Below the pieces are notes generated by a model, which was given only the letters and a program-made list of their open reading frames with translations, was not told the origin of the DNA and searched no databases. A stretch of DNA of 64,000 bases, taken from positions 1,116,001 through 1,180,000 of the forward strand of contig NZ_CP040986.1 of NCBI RefSeq assembly GCF_006364615.1. Reading direction: 5' to 3'. Source of the DNA: Candidatus Methylopumilus rimovensis (GTDB lineage Bacteria > Pseudomonadota > Gammaproteobacteria > Burkholderiales > Methylophilaceae). Positions within the stretch are counted from its first letter, which is position 1; the number at the start of each line of letters is the position of its first letter. This document shows positions 51,977 through 60,330 of this stretch, one piece after another. The position numbers were made by a program, and so were the translations under genes.

Positions 51977-53047
51977 GTGAAAATTTTAAATCGCTACCTT
52001 AATCTAGAATTAGCCATTCCTATTTTCTGGGTCATGATAGGTATCATAGGCATATTAAGTTTTTTCGACTTCATTCAGGAAATTAATGATTTAGGAAAAG
52101 GCACATACAATATGCTTACCATTTTTAGTTATGTTGCTCTTAGTATTCCTGGACATGTTTATGAAATTGTTCCCATTGCGGTGCTTATTGGATCGATGTA
52201 TACCATGGGGCAGCTTTCTGAAAATTCTGAATTGACTGTCATTCGATCTAGCGGATTTTCAATAAAACGTATTGCATATACTTTATCTCTTACAGGATTA
52301 TTTTTTACATTATTTACATTTGCTGTAGGGGATCTTGTAACTCCAGTAACAGAAAAAAAAGCGCAGCAAATAAAAATTACCTCTAAAGATGCAATTGTTT
52401 CGCAAGAATTTAAATCTGGTCTATGGATAAAAGATAATAATAGTTTTATTAATATAGAGCATGTTTTGCCTGACTCAAGCCTATCTGAAATTCACATTTA
52501 TGAATTTGATAAAACTTTTCGTTTAAGAACAATTACAAATGCCAAAAAAGGAAGTTTTAAAAACTCCGAATGGAAGCTTGATGATATTAATCAAACAATC
52601 TTTGATAAAGATAAGGTTTCAACTAATTCACTTAAAAGCGCAATTTGGAAATCACTTATCAAACCTGAAATGATGAATGTACTTCTTGTTTCGCCAGAAA
52701 AAATGTCATCAATCAACCTTATTAATTTTATTAAATACCTGAAAAATAATAAGCAAAAAGTTACAAGGTATGAAGTGGCTTTATGGGGAAAATTAATTTA
52801 TCCCCTGGCTTCTATTGTAATGGTTTTATTTGCTATTCCATTTGGATTTTTTCAAGAGCGCTCAGGTGGTAAAAATCTAAAAATTTTCTTAGGTATTTTA
52901 ATAGGTATCTTTTATCAAATTATGAATTCATCTTTTAGATATATTGGGCTTCTAAATGACTGGCAGCCTCTAGCTTGCGCGATTATACCCACGCTTATTT
53001 TCTTCTCTGTTGGGATGGTGATGATTTATAAAATCGAACATCAATAA
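51977..53047 (+). CDS. lptG: LPS export ABC transporter permease LptG
   Basis: Second permease of the LPS exporter. 356 residues with the same layout as LptF: three membrane segments, periplasmic domain about 130-265, three more segments (FGFFQERSGGKNLKIF loop). GTG start seven bases after lptF. Its last 53 bases overlap the 3' end of an RDD gene on the other strand. The ATPase LptB is not in the window. Confidence 0.93.
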   Translation: MKILNRYLNLELAIPIFWVMIGIIGILSFFDFIQEINDLGKGTYNMLTIFSYVALSIPGHVYEIVPIAVLIGSMYTMGQLSENSELTVIRSSGFSIKRIAYTLSLTGLFFTLFTFAVGDLVTPVTEKKAQQIKITSKDAIVSQEFKSGLWIKDNNSFINIEHVLPDSSLSEIHIYEFDKTFRLRTITNAKKGSFKNSEWKLDDINQTIFDKDKVSTNSLKSAIWKSLIKPEMMNVLLVSPEKMSSINLINFIKYLKNNKQKVTRYEVALWGKLIYPLASIVMVLFAIPFGFFQERSGGKNLKIFLGILIGIFYQIMNSSFRYIGLLNDWQPLACAIIPTLIFFSVGMVMIYKIEHQ

Positions 53048-56291: not shown

Positions 56292-57548
56292 TTAATCTAT
56301 ACGCTGAAGTACTGCAGCAAAAAAACCATCTGTTTTTTGATGAAGGGGAGTTAATTTTAAAAAATTACCTGTAGAAAGAGGTACTTGATTTTTTATTAAT
56401 ATTTCATCAACAGAAATAGATCTAAAATTCTTATTATTTTTTAAGAAACTCTCAACAATAGACTCATTCTCTCTCTTCAAAAGACTACATGTAGAATAAA
56501 TTAACCGACCCTCTTTTTTTACAAGCTTTTTAGCCTCTTCAAGAATAGCTAATTGTTTGACATTAAGCTCATCAAGATCTTGCATAGAATTTTTCCATTT
56601 TAAATCTGGGTTTCTTCTAAAAGTGCCGGTTCCACTGCATGGAACATCAGCAAGTACTCGATCAAACTTACCATTTAATTTTTTTAATTTGGCATCTTTT
56701 TCATTTTTTATTTTTTGCGCGAATAAGTTCGATAATCCAGATTTTTTTAATCGCTTACCTAAATTAATAATCCTTTTTTCAGAAATATCATAAGCATATA
56801 TCCGTCCAGTATTTTTCATAATTGCGCCTACTGCTAGACTCTTACCGCCTGCGCCAGCACAAAAATCTGCAACCATCATTCCTCTTTTTGCATCTATAAC
56901 AAAGCTTAATATTTGACTGCTTTCATCTTGAACCTCAATTTTTCCTTCAATGAACAATGGATTTCGGCTTAATGATGTTCCTCTGGGAATTCTGATTCCT
57001 GTGGGCGAGTATTTCATGACTTCAATATCAGTTACTTCTTTTGTAAGCAATTTAATTAGTTCATCTCTAGTCATTTTTATAGTATTTACTCTTATATCTA
57101 GTTTGGCTGGCTCAAGAAAACTTCTGCCCAAAAGTACTGCTTCTTCAATACCATACTGCTCAACTAATAAACCCCAAAGCCAATCAGGTAAACTCAATTT
57201 TTCTGGCCATGTATATTTTTCTGTATCTCTTGATTTTAATGATTTAGCCCATTCGATTTCTTCTTTACTTAACCCATGCTCTAAGTCACGAATACTTCTG
57301 CCTTCAATTTTTATTAGCCAAGCAATTACAAGCTTTTTGTAGTTAAGATCGTCTTCATTTAGTTTTTTTAAAAATCTGAGTCGCCTAATAATGCCATAGA
57401 TGCATTCAGCAATCTCTCCTCTGTCTTTCTGTCCAAGCTCGCCATGATCTCTATAATAGTTGCTTAATTTCATATCTGCAGGCCCATGAAAGTCTAATAT
57501 TTCTCCTAAAATATTTGCGCAATGTTGTATTAAATTTAGGTTAAGCAT
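56292..57548 (-). CDS. RsmB/NOP-family 16S rRNA cytosine-5 methyltransferase
   Basis: SAM-dependent RNA m5C methyltransferase. 418 residues: an N-terminal NusB-like helical region (about 1-130), a linking region, and the catalytic domain with DFCAGAGGKSLAV near 230-242, DVPCSGTGTFRRNPD near 298-312 and the nucleophile cysteine motif YSTCSLLKREN near 351-361. Likely to modify 16S rRNA, as RsmB or RsmF do; the precise target cytosine is not determinable. It is two bases after the first-listed DUF3108 gene. Confidence 0.88.
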   Translation of the reverse strand: MLNLNLIQHCANILGEILDFHGPADMKLSNYYRDHGELGQKDRGEIAECIYGIIRRLRFLKKLNEDDLNYKKLVIAWLIKIEGRSIRDLEHGLSKEEIEWAKSLKSRDTEKYTWPEKLSLPDWLWGLLVEQYGIEEAVLLGRSFLEPAKLDIRVNTIKMTRDELIKLLTKEVTDIEVMKYSPTGIRIPRGTSLSRNPLFIEGKIEVQDESSQILSFVIDAKRGMMVADFCAGAGGKSLAVGAIMKNTGRIYAYDISEKRIINLGKRLKKSGLSNLFAQKIKNEKDAKLKKLNGKFDRVLADVPCSGTGTFRRNPDLKWKNSMQDLDELNVKQLAILEEAKKLVKKEGRLIYSTCSLLKRENESIVESFLKNNKNFRSISVDEILIKNQVPLSTGNFLKLTPLHQKTDGFFAAVLQRID

Positions 57549-57550
57549 AT

Positions 57551-58549
57551 TTAAGGCTCTAAACTCTCGATTTCAATTTTTTTTGTAGACTGATCTAAAA
57601 TGCTTCCATCTTTTTCTGTCTTCCTTATTTTGATAGGAAGGTATTTGTAGTCCTTTGCAAGCCACAAATCTATTCTTTCTTCATTGTTGTAATTAAATTT
57701 TGCTATATGCAATGTTAGAATCTTATCAACGTCAGTTTCAATGAATTCCTCTCCAATATATGAATAATCGTATGGTTTATAATTTTTCCCGTTTGTAATA
57801 TAGATTTTCATTTTTGCTAGAGGAGGTTCAAACATAAATTGATACATGAAACTTAACATATCTTGTGAGCCTTCCAACATTTCAAATTCACTTATTTTTC
57901 CATTTGTTGTGGTAATTATTTTTTTAGACTCCCAATCAAAAGCTGCGAAATTATCAATTTTGCTGCCAAATTGATAATGATAATTTTTTGGCTTCAGGCC
58001 CTCTGGAGTTAGAATTCCATCACTTGTTTGCTTTAATTTATTCCAATAAAAAAGAGACACAAATCCTTTTGCTTCAACTTCATTTTTGATGGTGTATTGA
58101 TTATTCTCTCCTAAGAAATACATAGTTCTTGCAACACCTACAGGCGATCCATCCAAGCTTCTTCTTACATCATAATCAATAACTACTTTTTTATACTGAA
58201 TTTCTTTTTTATCAAAAGATTGAGTAGTGTCATTTAATTCATTATTTTGAATCTCTTGATTCAAATCTTTTGATGAACTGTCTTTTTTTTCATTTGAATT
58301 ATTATCTATCTGCTTATTTTTTTTAGGGGTAGATGATTTTTTCTTTGTTAATCCTTCTTCTTTTTTCAAAGGTGCTTCAAGGTGGCTTTCAATAACAATA
58401 TTAGGATTGTCGGAATTTTTTAAAAAAAATGGGTTGTATAAATCAATACCTCCCAATAAAAAAAGATGGGCTAAAATTGAGACAAAGATGGCCAACAAAA
58501 ATTTTACATGATTACTTTTCAGTAGTATTTTTATAAGATCAAAGTCCAT
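57551..58549 (-). CDS. Membrane-anchored DUF3108 protein
   Basis: No defined function. 332 residues: a single N-terminal membrane segment (about 15-35), a Lys/Asn/Ser/Glu-rich linker (about 55-115), then a DUF3108 domain to the end. The domain matches its neighbour at 58539-59267 in several places (TPEGLKPK, AFDWESKKI, LPIKIRKTEKDGSILDQ). The anchor-plus-linker plan is TonB-like in outline and points to a periplasmic domain. It overlaps the upstream paralogue by 11 bases and precedes the RsmB-type gene by two bases. Confidence 0.75.
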   Translation of the reverse strand: MDFDLIKILLKSNHVKFLLAIFVSILAHLFLLGGIDLYNPFFLKNSDNPNIVIESHLEAPLKKEEGLTKKKSSTPKKNKQIDNNSNEKKDSSSKDLNQEIQNNELNDTTQSFDKKEIQYKKVVIDYDVRRSLDGSPVGVARTMYFLGENNQYTIKNEVEAKGFVSLFYWNKLKQTSDGILTPEGLKPKNYHYQFGSKIDNFAAFDWESKKIITTTNGKISEFEMLEGSQDMLSFMYQFMFEPPLAKMKIYITNGKNYKPYDYSYIGEEFIETDVDKILTLHIAKFNYNNEERIDLWLAKDYKYLPIKIRKTEKDGSILDQSTKKIEIESLEP

Positions 58550-59267
58550 TGAGATCTATATTCGCCTGCACCAAATTTTGCTCTAATGTTGAACCATTTT
58601 TTTCTTGATAACGAATGCGAATTGGTAATTTATAGGATTTATTGTTTAGCCATATTTGAGTTTCTGGCTTTCCATCCTTTTCAGCTATGCTTTGCATGAA
58701 GATAGTCTCAAGATTTATATCTCCCAATGGAAGTATCACTTTCTTATCTACGATCTTAAACTGATATTTTTTATATTTTTTACCTGTTGCTGCTGAGAAC
58801 TCTATTATTGAAGCATCGTAATTTTCAAAATTTAATTGGTATAAGTAGCTAATTAAATCTTGTGTTTTATTTTCTATATTTTCTTTTATTTCTGCGCCTT
58901 TATAACGAGTGATTAGTATTTGGTTTTCCCAATCAAAATCTACAATTGCATCTTTACTTTGATTATTTCCTTGGTGAACTTCAAGGTGTTTTGGTTTCAA
59001 GCCTTCTGGTGAAATATTTCCTTCACTTATCACTACACGATCTCCAAATAAAGCATAGAGACCAATTCCTTTTGTCACACTTTCAATATGATATTTTCCT
59101 GTTTCGTCAGATATAAATTTTTCAACGACAGTGCCTAGCAATTCTCCATTTTGAGTTAGCTCATATTTCAACTCTATAATGTTTGGCAGCTCTTTTGAAA
59201 AAACTAATGTATTAAATATGAATAAAAAAAATGCTAGCCACATTTTAAATGGCACTAATTTTTTCAT
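58539..59267 (-). CDS. DUF3108 periplasmic protein
   Basis: No defined function. 242 residues: a signal peptide (about 1-24, MKKLVPFKMWLAFFLF) then one DUF3108 domain. Shared features with the next gene include SPEGLKPKH, VDFDWENQI, GKKYKKYQ and LPIRIRYQEKNGSTLEQ, so the two are paralogues, one soluble or lipid-free periplasmic and the other membrane-anchored. It begins seven bases after purM. A periplasmic envelope role is inferred from the export signals. Confidence 0.78.
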   Translation of the reverse strand: MKKLVPFKMWLAFFLFIFNTLVFSKELPNIIELKYELTQNGELLGTVVEKFISDETGKYHIESVTKGIGLYALFGDRVVISEGNISPEGLKPKHLEVHQGNNQSKDAIVDFDWENQILITRYKGAEIKENIENKTQDLISYLYQLNFENYDASIIEFSAATGKKYKKYQFKIVDKKVILPLGDINLETIFMQSIAEKDGKPETQIWLNNKSYKLPIRIRYQEKNGSTLEQNLVQANIDLNGL

Positions 59268-59274
59268 ATTTATA

Positions 59275-60330
59275 TTAAATCACCATAGTAGGATGCTCAT
59301 TAGCTAGGCGTTTTCTAATGATGCCTATTTCATAAACTGTCTCATTGGATTCTTGCAAGACTTGCTTTGCTTTGGCAACATCATTTTTATCAATGACTAT
59401 AGCCATACCTATTCCACAATTAAATGTACGGTAAAGCTCTGTATTTGAAATATTTCCTTTATCTTGTAGCCATTGAAAAAGTTTTGGTAATGGCCAGCTT
59501 GATGATTGAATTTCTGCCATTAAATCTTCGCCTAAAATACGTGGGATATTTTCAGTAATACCGCCCCCCGTAATATGAGCCATACCTTTAATTTTAATTG
59601 CCTCTTTGAGCTTAAGGACAGACTTTACATAGAGCTTGGTAGGCTCCATTACAACATCTCTTAATGTCCTTCCATCAAAAGAACCTGAGAAATCAGCCTT
59701 TTCATTACTGATAATTTTTCTAATTAAAGAATATCCGTTTGAATGCGCCCCGCTAGATGCAAGGCCAATGACTGCATCACCAGATTGTATTTTTTTACCA
59801 TTAATAATTTCACTTTTTTCTACAACGCCTACTGCGAATCCAGCTAAATCGTATTCACCTTCAGGGTACATACCAGGCATTTCTGCTGTTTCCCCACCTA
59901 CAAGAGCACAACCAGACTGTGCACAACCTTCCGCAATACCTTTAATAACCTGGGATGCTGTTTCTACATCAAGCTTCCCACATGCAAAATAGTCAAGAAA
60001 GAATAAGGGTTCAGCACCTTGCACTAATATATCGTTGACACTCATAGCAACCAAATCAATTCCAACAGTGTCATGTTTATTTAATTCAAATGCTAATTTA
60101 AGTTTTGTACCTACTCCGTCAGTGCCTGAAACCAGAACAGGTTCTTTGTATTTTTTAGGGACTTCAAATAATGAACCAAAACCTCCTATGCCTCCTAAAA
60201 CTTCGGCTCGCATGGTTTTTTTTGCAAAAGGCTTAATTCTTTCAACTAGTTGATCACCCGCCTCAATATCCACCCCTGCATCCCGATAAGTGATCGATTG
60301 GGTATCTTTTCTTGTGTCATCTTTATTCAA
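59275..60330 (-). CDS. purM: Phosphoribosylformylglycinamidine cyclo-ligase (AIR synthetase)
   Basis: Fifth step of purine synthesis: ATP-dependent closure of the imidazole ring. 351 residues; [22 protein letters not shown] and [13 protein letters not shown] are the family motifs. The start appears to be TTG ([25 protein letters not shown]) with GAGAG eight bases upstream; the N-terminus aligns with known PurM and no ATG is available before residue 40. purN, often next to purM, is not here. Confidence 0.96.

Follow-up and report, generated by a model that had tools for sequence, protein, structure and literature searches.

An anchored DUF3108 protein with a TonB/TolA-like N-terminus is probably an energy transducer with a LolA/EipB-like tip

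Candidatus Methylopumilus rimovensis encodes two tandem paralogues of the domain DUF3108, one secreted (the short form) and one anchored in the membrane (the long form). We found that the N-terminus of the long form resembles those of TonB and TolA, and we propose that this protein is probably an energy transducer of the TonB/TolA type in which a LolA/EipB-like DUF3108 tip replaces the TonB_C or TolA C-terminal domain. That it is energized, and with which partners and on which ligand it would act, we infer.

Both genes lie on the minus strand of the window, by which we mean the whole stretch of 64,000 nucleotides analysed here, and the coordinates given without a locus name are positions in it. 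The short gene (58539–59267, minus strand; 242 amino acids), supported by its open reading frame, Pfam and AlphaFold (model mc7424541a262, pLDDT 84.4), starts with a signal-peptide-like N-terminus at about residues 1–25 (59193–59267), seen as a hydrophobic stretch and a helix at residues 7–19 and followed by a predicted cleavage site. Its DUF3108 domain, defined by Pfam, AlphaFold and a LolA/EipB-like fold, covers residues 30–238 (58554–59180). The long gene (57551–58549, minus strand; 332 amino acids), supported by its open reading frame, Pfam, AlphaFold and profiles, encodes a putative TonB/TolA-type N-terminus, a linker and a DUF3108 domain. Its transmembrane helix, placed at about residues 17–35 (58445–58501) by hydrophobicity and AlphaFold, aligns in profiles with the helices of TolA and TonB, and contains Ser24-x3-His28 (SILAH; 58466–58480), which alignments equate with the Ser–His pair of the TonB/TolA SHLS motif. 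A periplasmic linker of low pLDDT follows at residues 40–117 (58199–58432), and the DUF3108 domain, identified by Pfam, AlphaFold and fold matches, occupies residues 118–330 (57560–58198). In the AlphaFold model, the long form consists of an N-terminal helix at residues 13–32, a low-confidence linker of about 80 residues and a confident, mainly beta domain; structure prediction, which had been suggested for each copy, gave such a domain in the short form as well.

These results confirm the preliminary description in its account of two overlapping DUF3108 genes in tandem, with an overlap of 11 nucleotides (58539–58549) and Pfam matches in both, of which one lies behind a signal peptide and the other behind a membrane helix and a charged linker. 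The linker was described as rich in Lys, Glu, Asn and Ser, which holds within this genus; in many relatives it is rich in Pro instead (alignment A1). Both genes belong to a run on the minus strand in the order purM, short, long and rsmB, with gaps of 7 and 2 nucleotides and the one overlap of 11 nucleotides. The upstream neighbour (59275–60330), which we take from its sequence to be purM, is present in 112 of 245 DUF3108 loci as judged by phmmer with the window protein, and the downstream neighbour rsmB (56292–57548) is present in 138 of the 245; a Pfam RsmB/F match was obtained on one relative (L137). Of 115 adjacent pairs of short and long genes, counted without removing duplicates, 75 have the same overlap of 11 nucleotides, which argues for coupled expression where both genes are present. 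About 4.5 kb from the pair, on the plus strand (51977–53047), lies a gene for what is presumably, going by its sequence, an LptG/LptF-like permease.

Membership of both proteins in DUF3108 (Pfam PF11306, with a curated cut-off of 26 bits) is clear: the long protein scored 69.8 bits over residues 143–317 and the short protein 69.0 bits over residues 34–226. The two share 28% identity over 213 columns (E 2e-20), and the 1.28-Mb genome contains no other DUF3108 match. Other family assignments were weak or absent. Pfam gave weak matches to legume lectin in the window DUF3108 proteins, and to DUF2092 and DUF6134 among 30 long forms; in NCBIfam neither protein matched a family at a meaningful score. 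Searches of PDB sequences with the short protein or a short-form profile gave nothing useful, and a search of plasmids for annotated DUF3108 relatives gave no match. The domain is widespread, being present in all 100 Methylophilaceae genomes sampled, in 123 of 150 genomes at the level of the order, 40 of which have two or more matches by row count, and in 183 of 299 at the level of the phylum. The relatives fetched by name were mostly Candidatus Methylopumilus and other Methylophilaceae. In the loci read, the anchor is confined to long forms of the window's own order, and the copies from other orders look secreted.

The preliminary description had suggested that the two copies either do different jobs or form a heteromeric complex that spans the periplasm. 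The second of these, in which the secreted and anchored copies make up one complex, would account for their tandem order and recurrent overlap and for the presence of at least two copies in most Methylophilaceae genomes (85 with two or more DUF3108 matches and 15 with one, by row count). Against it, the stretches that we read include cases of either form on its own. In four of the 15 single-match Methylophilaceae genomes (G002, G023, G040 and G067), rsmB comes immediately after the short gene, and the long gene that would separate them is missing. Among 18 distinct single-match loci at the level of the order, read as stretches of about 7.5 kb, a long form was present in 13 and a short form in 5. 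All these solo cases are defined by one Pfam match per genome and by the stretches read, which leaves room for a very diverged second copy. In another genome (G006), the short and long genes are about 46 kb apart, and the long gene adjoins genes for Hpre_diP_synt_I, NusG_II, ApbE and glutathione synthetase. The pair, whose co-occurrence across genomes had been suggested as a check, is not confined to this genome; single copies, one of the two findings (with a lack of predicted interaction) that had been named as evidence against the complex, were found as well. An obligate heteromer of the short and long forms is not supported, as each paralogue is also found alone, and because both occur alone we do not adopt the heteromer as our main reading, considering it rather improbable.

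A phylogenetic tree, built by a quick method and without L059–L088, L076, L161 and L168, separates the two forms within the family: 22 long forms of Methylophilaceae group together (SH-aLRT 99), as do 52 short forms (95). Five changes of the long or short label are needed in all, with deep branches poorly resolved, and every gammaproteobacterial copy in the tree that belongs to another order is short and lies apart. Given the grouping of the long and short forms, the duplication that produced them is probably older than the family.

The other suggestion, that the copies do different jobs, is supported by their N-termini, because the long form has one that appears to be of the TonB/TolA type and the short form does not. 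Ser-x3-His was present in the helix of 132 of 138 distinct long forms, with the His in all 138, as against a Ser-x3-His in the hydrophobic stretch of only 3 of 181 distinct short forms; here, a form counts as long if more than 75 residues separate a hydrophobic window from the domain that follows it. The 138 long forms are what remained of 143 rows after removing three that were mis-sorted (L076, L161 and L168), one that was truncated (L176) and one with runs of N (L213). Six long forms keep the His without the Ser (L109, L123, L144, L146, L147 and L148, from family groups f7, f30 and f47), possibly as a result of a change of stator or a loss of coupling in these groups. Counted by family group, the pair is present in 21 of 24 and the His in all 24, and this persistence argues for constraint. 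Among named loci, all 79 full-length long forms carry Ser-x3-His (two incomplete ones were dropped). The Ser and His are also the sole invariant columns before the DUF3108 domain in alignment A1, whose 30 rows were hand-picked and include no Ser-less form, whereas the count over 138 rows includes those forms. Both residues are likewise invariant in the 70 rows of alignment A4, in which most of the flanking helix residues vary; in the per-column table, where rows were anchored on Ser-x3-His, these two columns are full by construction.

In the literature on Ton and Tol, Ser-x3-His-x6-Leu-x3-Ser is described as common to TonB and TolA, with Ser16 and His20 of TonB contacting Ser34 and Trp38 of ExbB, and Ser18 and His22 of TolA contacting Ser28 and Trp32 of TolQ (PMC12215075, as far as its text was available). 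In the same text, the His of the motif is called essential and the Leu and final Ser are said to be less conserved in Ton. According to a further report, seen in part, TolA and TonB are each brought into contact with the stator of the other system when their motifs are swapped (PMC8928145). The window protein does not keep the last two places of the motif, having Ile35 for the Leu and Asn39 for the Ser.

It could be argued that the helix merely tethers a plain periplasmic protein, with Ser-x3-His serving as a packing motif or persisting as a relic of a TonB fusion and no energy coupling taking place. Such a protein would be consistent with the loss of the Ser in the six long forms mentioned above, with the absence of the long form from some relatives, and with the composition of the 245 DUF3108 loci, which contain no relative of exbB, exbD or tolQ and in which the lone 'TonB' match is itself a long DUF3108 protein. 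A simple tether, however, does not readily explain why the Ser and His stay invariant in the 70-row alignment while their neighbours vary, nor why the pair recurs in so many family groups. It also sits poorly with our control, in which the N-terminal hydrophobic helices of 353 genes outside DUF3108 included only 10 with Ser-x3-His: nine from TonB genes, all in the TonB loci that had been fetched on purpose, and one from an unrelated ubiA-like neighbour of tonB. We therefore regard a plain anchor as unlikely. Another N-terminal membrane helix with a His is found in the protein encoded at L157:953–1963 (minus strand) of a same-class genome (G404), where the gene for a secreted DUF3108 protein lies about 1.4 kb away; the L157 protein ranks low in a search with a profile of long-form N-termini (E 4.5).

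Consistent with a TonB/TolA-type N-terminus, profile searches that were given no information on the motif linked the long form to both proteins. When the A4 profile of 70 long forms was compared with 177,635 PDB sequences, the best match was TolA (E 0.0033) and the next was TonB (E 0.015), with the Ser and His of the helix in register in both alignments. The third match was a ribosomal protein (E 0.1) that aligned with the linker only, and part of the PDB score thus comes from the low-complexity composition of the linker. Searched against the whole genome in six frames, with E up to 10, the same profile returned only three matches, namely the long protein itself, the short protein (E 6.8e-34) and, at E 0.001, TonB over its N-terminal half; the genome's own TolA was not among them. 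Several of these E-values (0.003, 0.015 and 0.001) are modest. A profile of 91 long-form N-termini, run against 1,371 other proteins, placed five TonBs on top (E 5.8e-8, 0.007, 0.03, 0.06 and 0.16), only the first of them strongly, ahead of the first non-TonB at 0.45; it found the genome's own TolA at E 4.7, and 10 of the 21 TonBs were not listed even at E 1000.

The relationship was also recovered in the opposite direction. A profile of 21 TonB N-termini, the TonB group having been defined by phmmer with the C-terminal part of the genome's own TonB, was searched against 1,657 proteins. At E up to 0.001 it matched the 21 TonBs and 6 DUF3108 proteins alone. Raising the limit to 0.1 brought the DUF3108 proteins to 19, still with nothing else besides the 21 TonBs, and a limit of 1 gave the 21 TonBs, 42 DUF3108 proteins and 2 others, one of them (E 0.28) encoded in a locus that had been retrieved for TonB. 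With residues 1–70 of the genome's own TonB as the query, a Methylopumilus long form was found at E 0.0001, and the first 25 matches were all TonB or DUF3108; the long protein of the window was found at E 0.079. Finally, hhalign aligned the long form with the 21 TonB N-termini at a probability of 96.7% over 54 columns, extending past the helix to a post-membrane stretch of TonB that aligns with NIVIESHLEAP in the linker of the long form. Eleven other families with N-terminal helices gave 0.1 to 2.9%, the windows being cut around the motif or a His for the long form and TonB and around the hydrophobic peak for the controls; a twelfth family was dropped because it had too few usable windows.

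The likeness to TonB and TolA ends before the C-terminal domain. The TonB C-terminal domain (PF03544/PF13103) is absent from the window protein, which matched no TonB family in Pfam with E up to 1. Nor did Pfam recognize a TonB family among 30 long forms, or a TolA C-terminal domain in these or in the window protein. The silence of Pfam on the TonB-like N-terminus is uninformative, because the genome's own TonB also matches C-terminal models alone (E up to 0.01). On these sequence criteria, the long protein falls outside the usual definition of a TonB.

We then considered which stator could serve the long protein. The genome has TolQRA, ExbBD and TonB, with two ExbB/TolQ and two ExbD/TolR proteins. 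The first set lies in a cluster that we take from its sequence to be tolQ-tolR-tolA-tolB-pal. An exbB-exbD pair lies between genes that are presumably lolD and msbA-lpxK-kdsB, most of these names being our reading of the sequences, and Pfam supports the identity of its exbB. The genome's TonB gene (L174:5503–6153, plus strand) is found just before a ubiA-like gene and far from any exbBD. A Ser-x3-Trp acceptor site is present in the genome's own TolQ and in all 12 tonB-linked ExbBs of relatives, whereas the msbA-linked ExbB keeps the Ser and has Leu, Val, Ile or Phe in place of the Trp in 30 of 30 genomes. Because TolQ has the acceptor pair and the msbA-linked ExbB lacks the Trp, TolQR appears to be the likelier stator for the long protein in this genome, a preference that reflects two residues in one alignment.

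An ExbB–ExbD pair adjoins msbA in all 30 Methylophilaceae genomes compared (L173:7596–8628, minus strand, in this genome; L280–L309 in relatives), and no tonB was recognized in the stretches of about 3.4 kb around it. This ExbBD may be a stator for something other than TonB or TolA. We had considered a dedicated link between it and the long form; this link is weakened because the pair is kept in all 30 genomes, including the four in which only the short form was found, and because its ExbB lacks the acceptor Trp.

Another possibility is that the long form is a TonB paralogue dedicated to a particular TonB-dependent receptor, which its DUF3108 tip would contact in place of TonB_C, with lipid playing no part. 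HasB, described in the literature available to us as a receptor-dedicated TonB paralogue for heme uptake, is the model for such a protein. The TonB-type N-terminus of the long form and the five Plug-domain receptors of the genome would fit this model; a TonB that carries TonB_C is, however, already present in this genome, and the fold of the tip matches LolA and EipB. A dedicated TonB paralogue is thus quite unlikely.

When the AlphaFold models were compared with the PDB, the closest solved fold was that of EipB (DUF1849) of Brucella abortus (PDB 6ntr), with Z 15.6 for the long form and 14.7 for the short form, each over 204 residues at 3.7 Å. Identity over the alignment is only 8–9%, and DUF1849 was not reported by Pfam. 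EipB is described as a periplasmic protein whose loss sensitizes cells to envelope-disrupting compounds and whose mechanism is unknown; a membrane anchor goes unmentioned in the available part of this review (PMC10787603). The second-best match was a sperm axonemal doublet protein (9fqr_Xh; Z 14.6 for the long form and 13.2 for the short form). LolA chains reached Z 10.0 against the long form and 10.4 against the short form, and LolB reached about 8; these alignments cover the domain only in part (about 130–150 residues), and Pfam found no LolA family. LprG was among the Foldseek matches of both forms, and chains of RseB, VioE and LmcA appeared at Z about 9–10. BF2203 of Bacteroides fragilis (PDB 3fzx), which has a YmcC-like fold, matched at Z 10.2–10.3 over 165–170 residues with 5–6% identity. 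A paper seen in part names 3fzx/BF2203 for DUF3108 and calls DUF3108 proteins outer-membrane beta-barrels (PMC4364669); the single membrane helix and linker of the long form do not fit such a barrel. According to these models, the DUF3108 domains of both copies are predicted to have a fold of the LolA/EipB kind, which makes lipid binding a reasonable thing to test; a LolA-like fold by itself shows no ligand. It is very unlikely that the domains sense envelope stress as RseB and MucB do, with the anchor relaying a signal once mislocalized lipid or LPS is bound, since, although the fold comparison did return RseB and MucB (Z about 9) and 1 of 30 long forms has a weak Pfam match to MucB_RseB (E 0.092), the cytoplasmic part has only about 16 residues, the five neighbours of a solo long gene (L103) include no anti-sigma factor or protease, and the fold is common to many functions.

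We therefore return to the energy transducer as our preferred reading, which can be divided into four steps. In the first, the long form very probably presents a helix with a Ser-x3-His docking pair, after which come a stretch resembling the post-membrane part of TonB and a long flexible linker. In the second, it would likely dock on a proton-driven stator, either TolQR or ExbBD. In the third, the DUF3108 tip would bind a lipid, a lipoprotein, an acylated glycan or an outer-membrane protein carrying one, and force from the stator would drive loading, release or remodelling at the outer membrane; this step as a whole, with a ligand-binding tip on which the stator acts near the outer membrane, we put forward tentatively. 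In the fourth, which is somewhat more doubtful still, the same ligand might have the secreted short form as its soluble carrier or partner; the overlap would couple translation of the two forms, yet the short form could also work alone.

If this is true, the proton motive force would be linked directly to the handling of lipids or lipoproteins at the outer membrane; what powers several of the steps that take place there is unsettled. In its broadest form, the proposal would add to TonB and TolA a third class of trans-envelope transducer coupled to the proton motive force, found across betaproteobacteria and serving energized traffic of lipids, lipoproteins or glycolipids, with the short form as its soluble carrier; we offer this as a speculative possibility. 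DUF3108, a domain of unknown function, also gains concrete residues to test, Ser24 and His28. Among the titles and abstract openings of the papers searched, we found no description of a TonB-type anchor on a LolA-like or DUF3108 domain, and in the portions of the DUF3108 literature available to us we found no mention of TonB.

The known transducers of the Ton and Tol systems end in domains that touch receptors (TonB_C) or TolB–Pal (TolA), and it is at this end that the long form departs from both. With TonB it shares an N-terminal membrane helix with Ser-x3-His, a post-membrane stretch and a long flexible linker, and the profiles of the two match each other in both directions, but in place of TonB_C or TonB_2 the long form has a DUF3108 domain of about 210 residues. 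With TolA it shares a helix in register with the Ser–His motif, followed by a charged flexible region, but it lacks the TolA C-terminal domain and is encoded outside tol-pal, in loci without tolQ.
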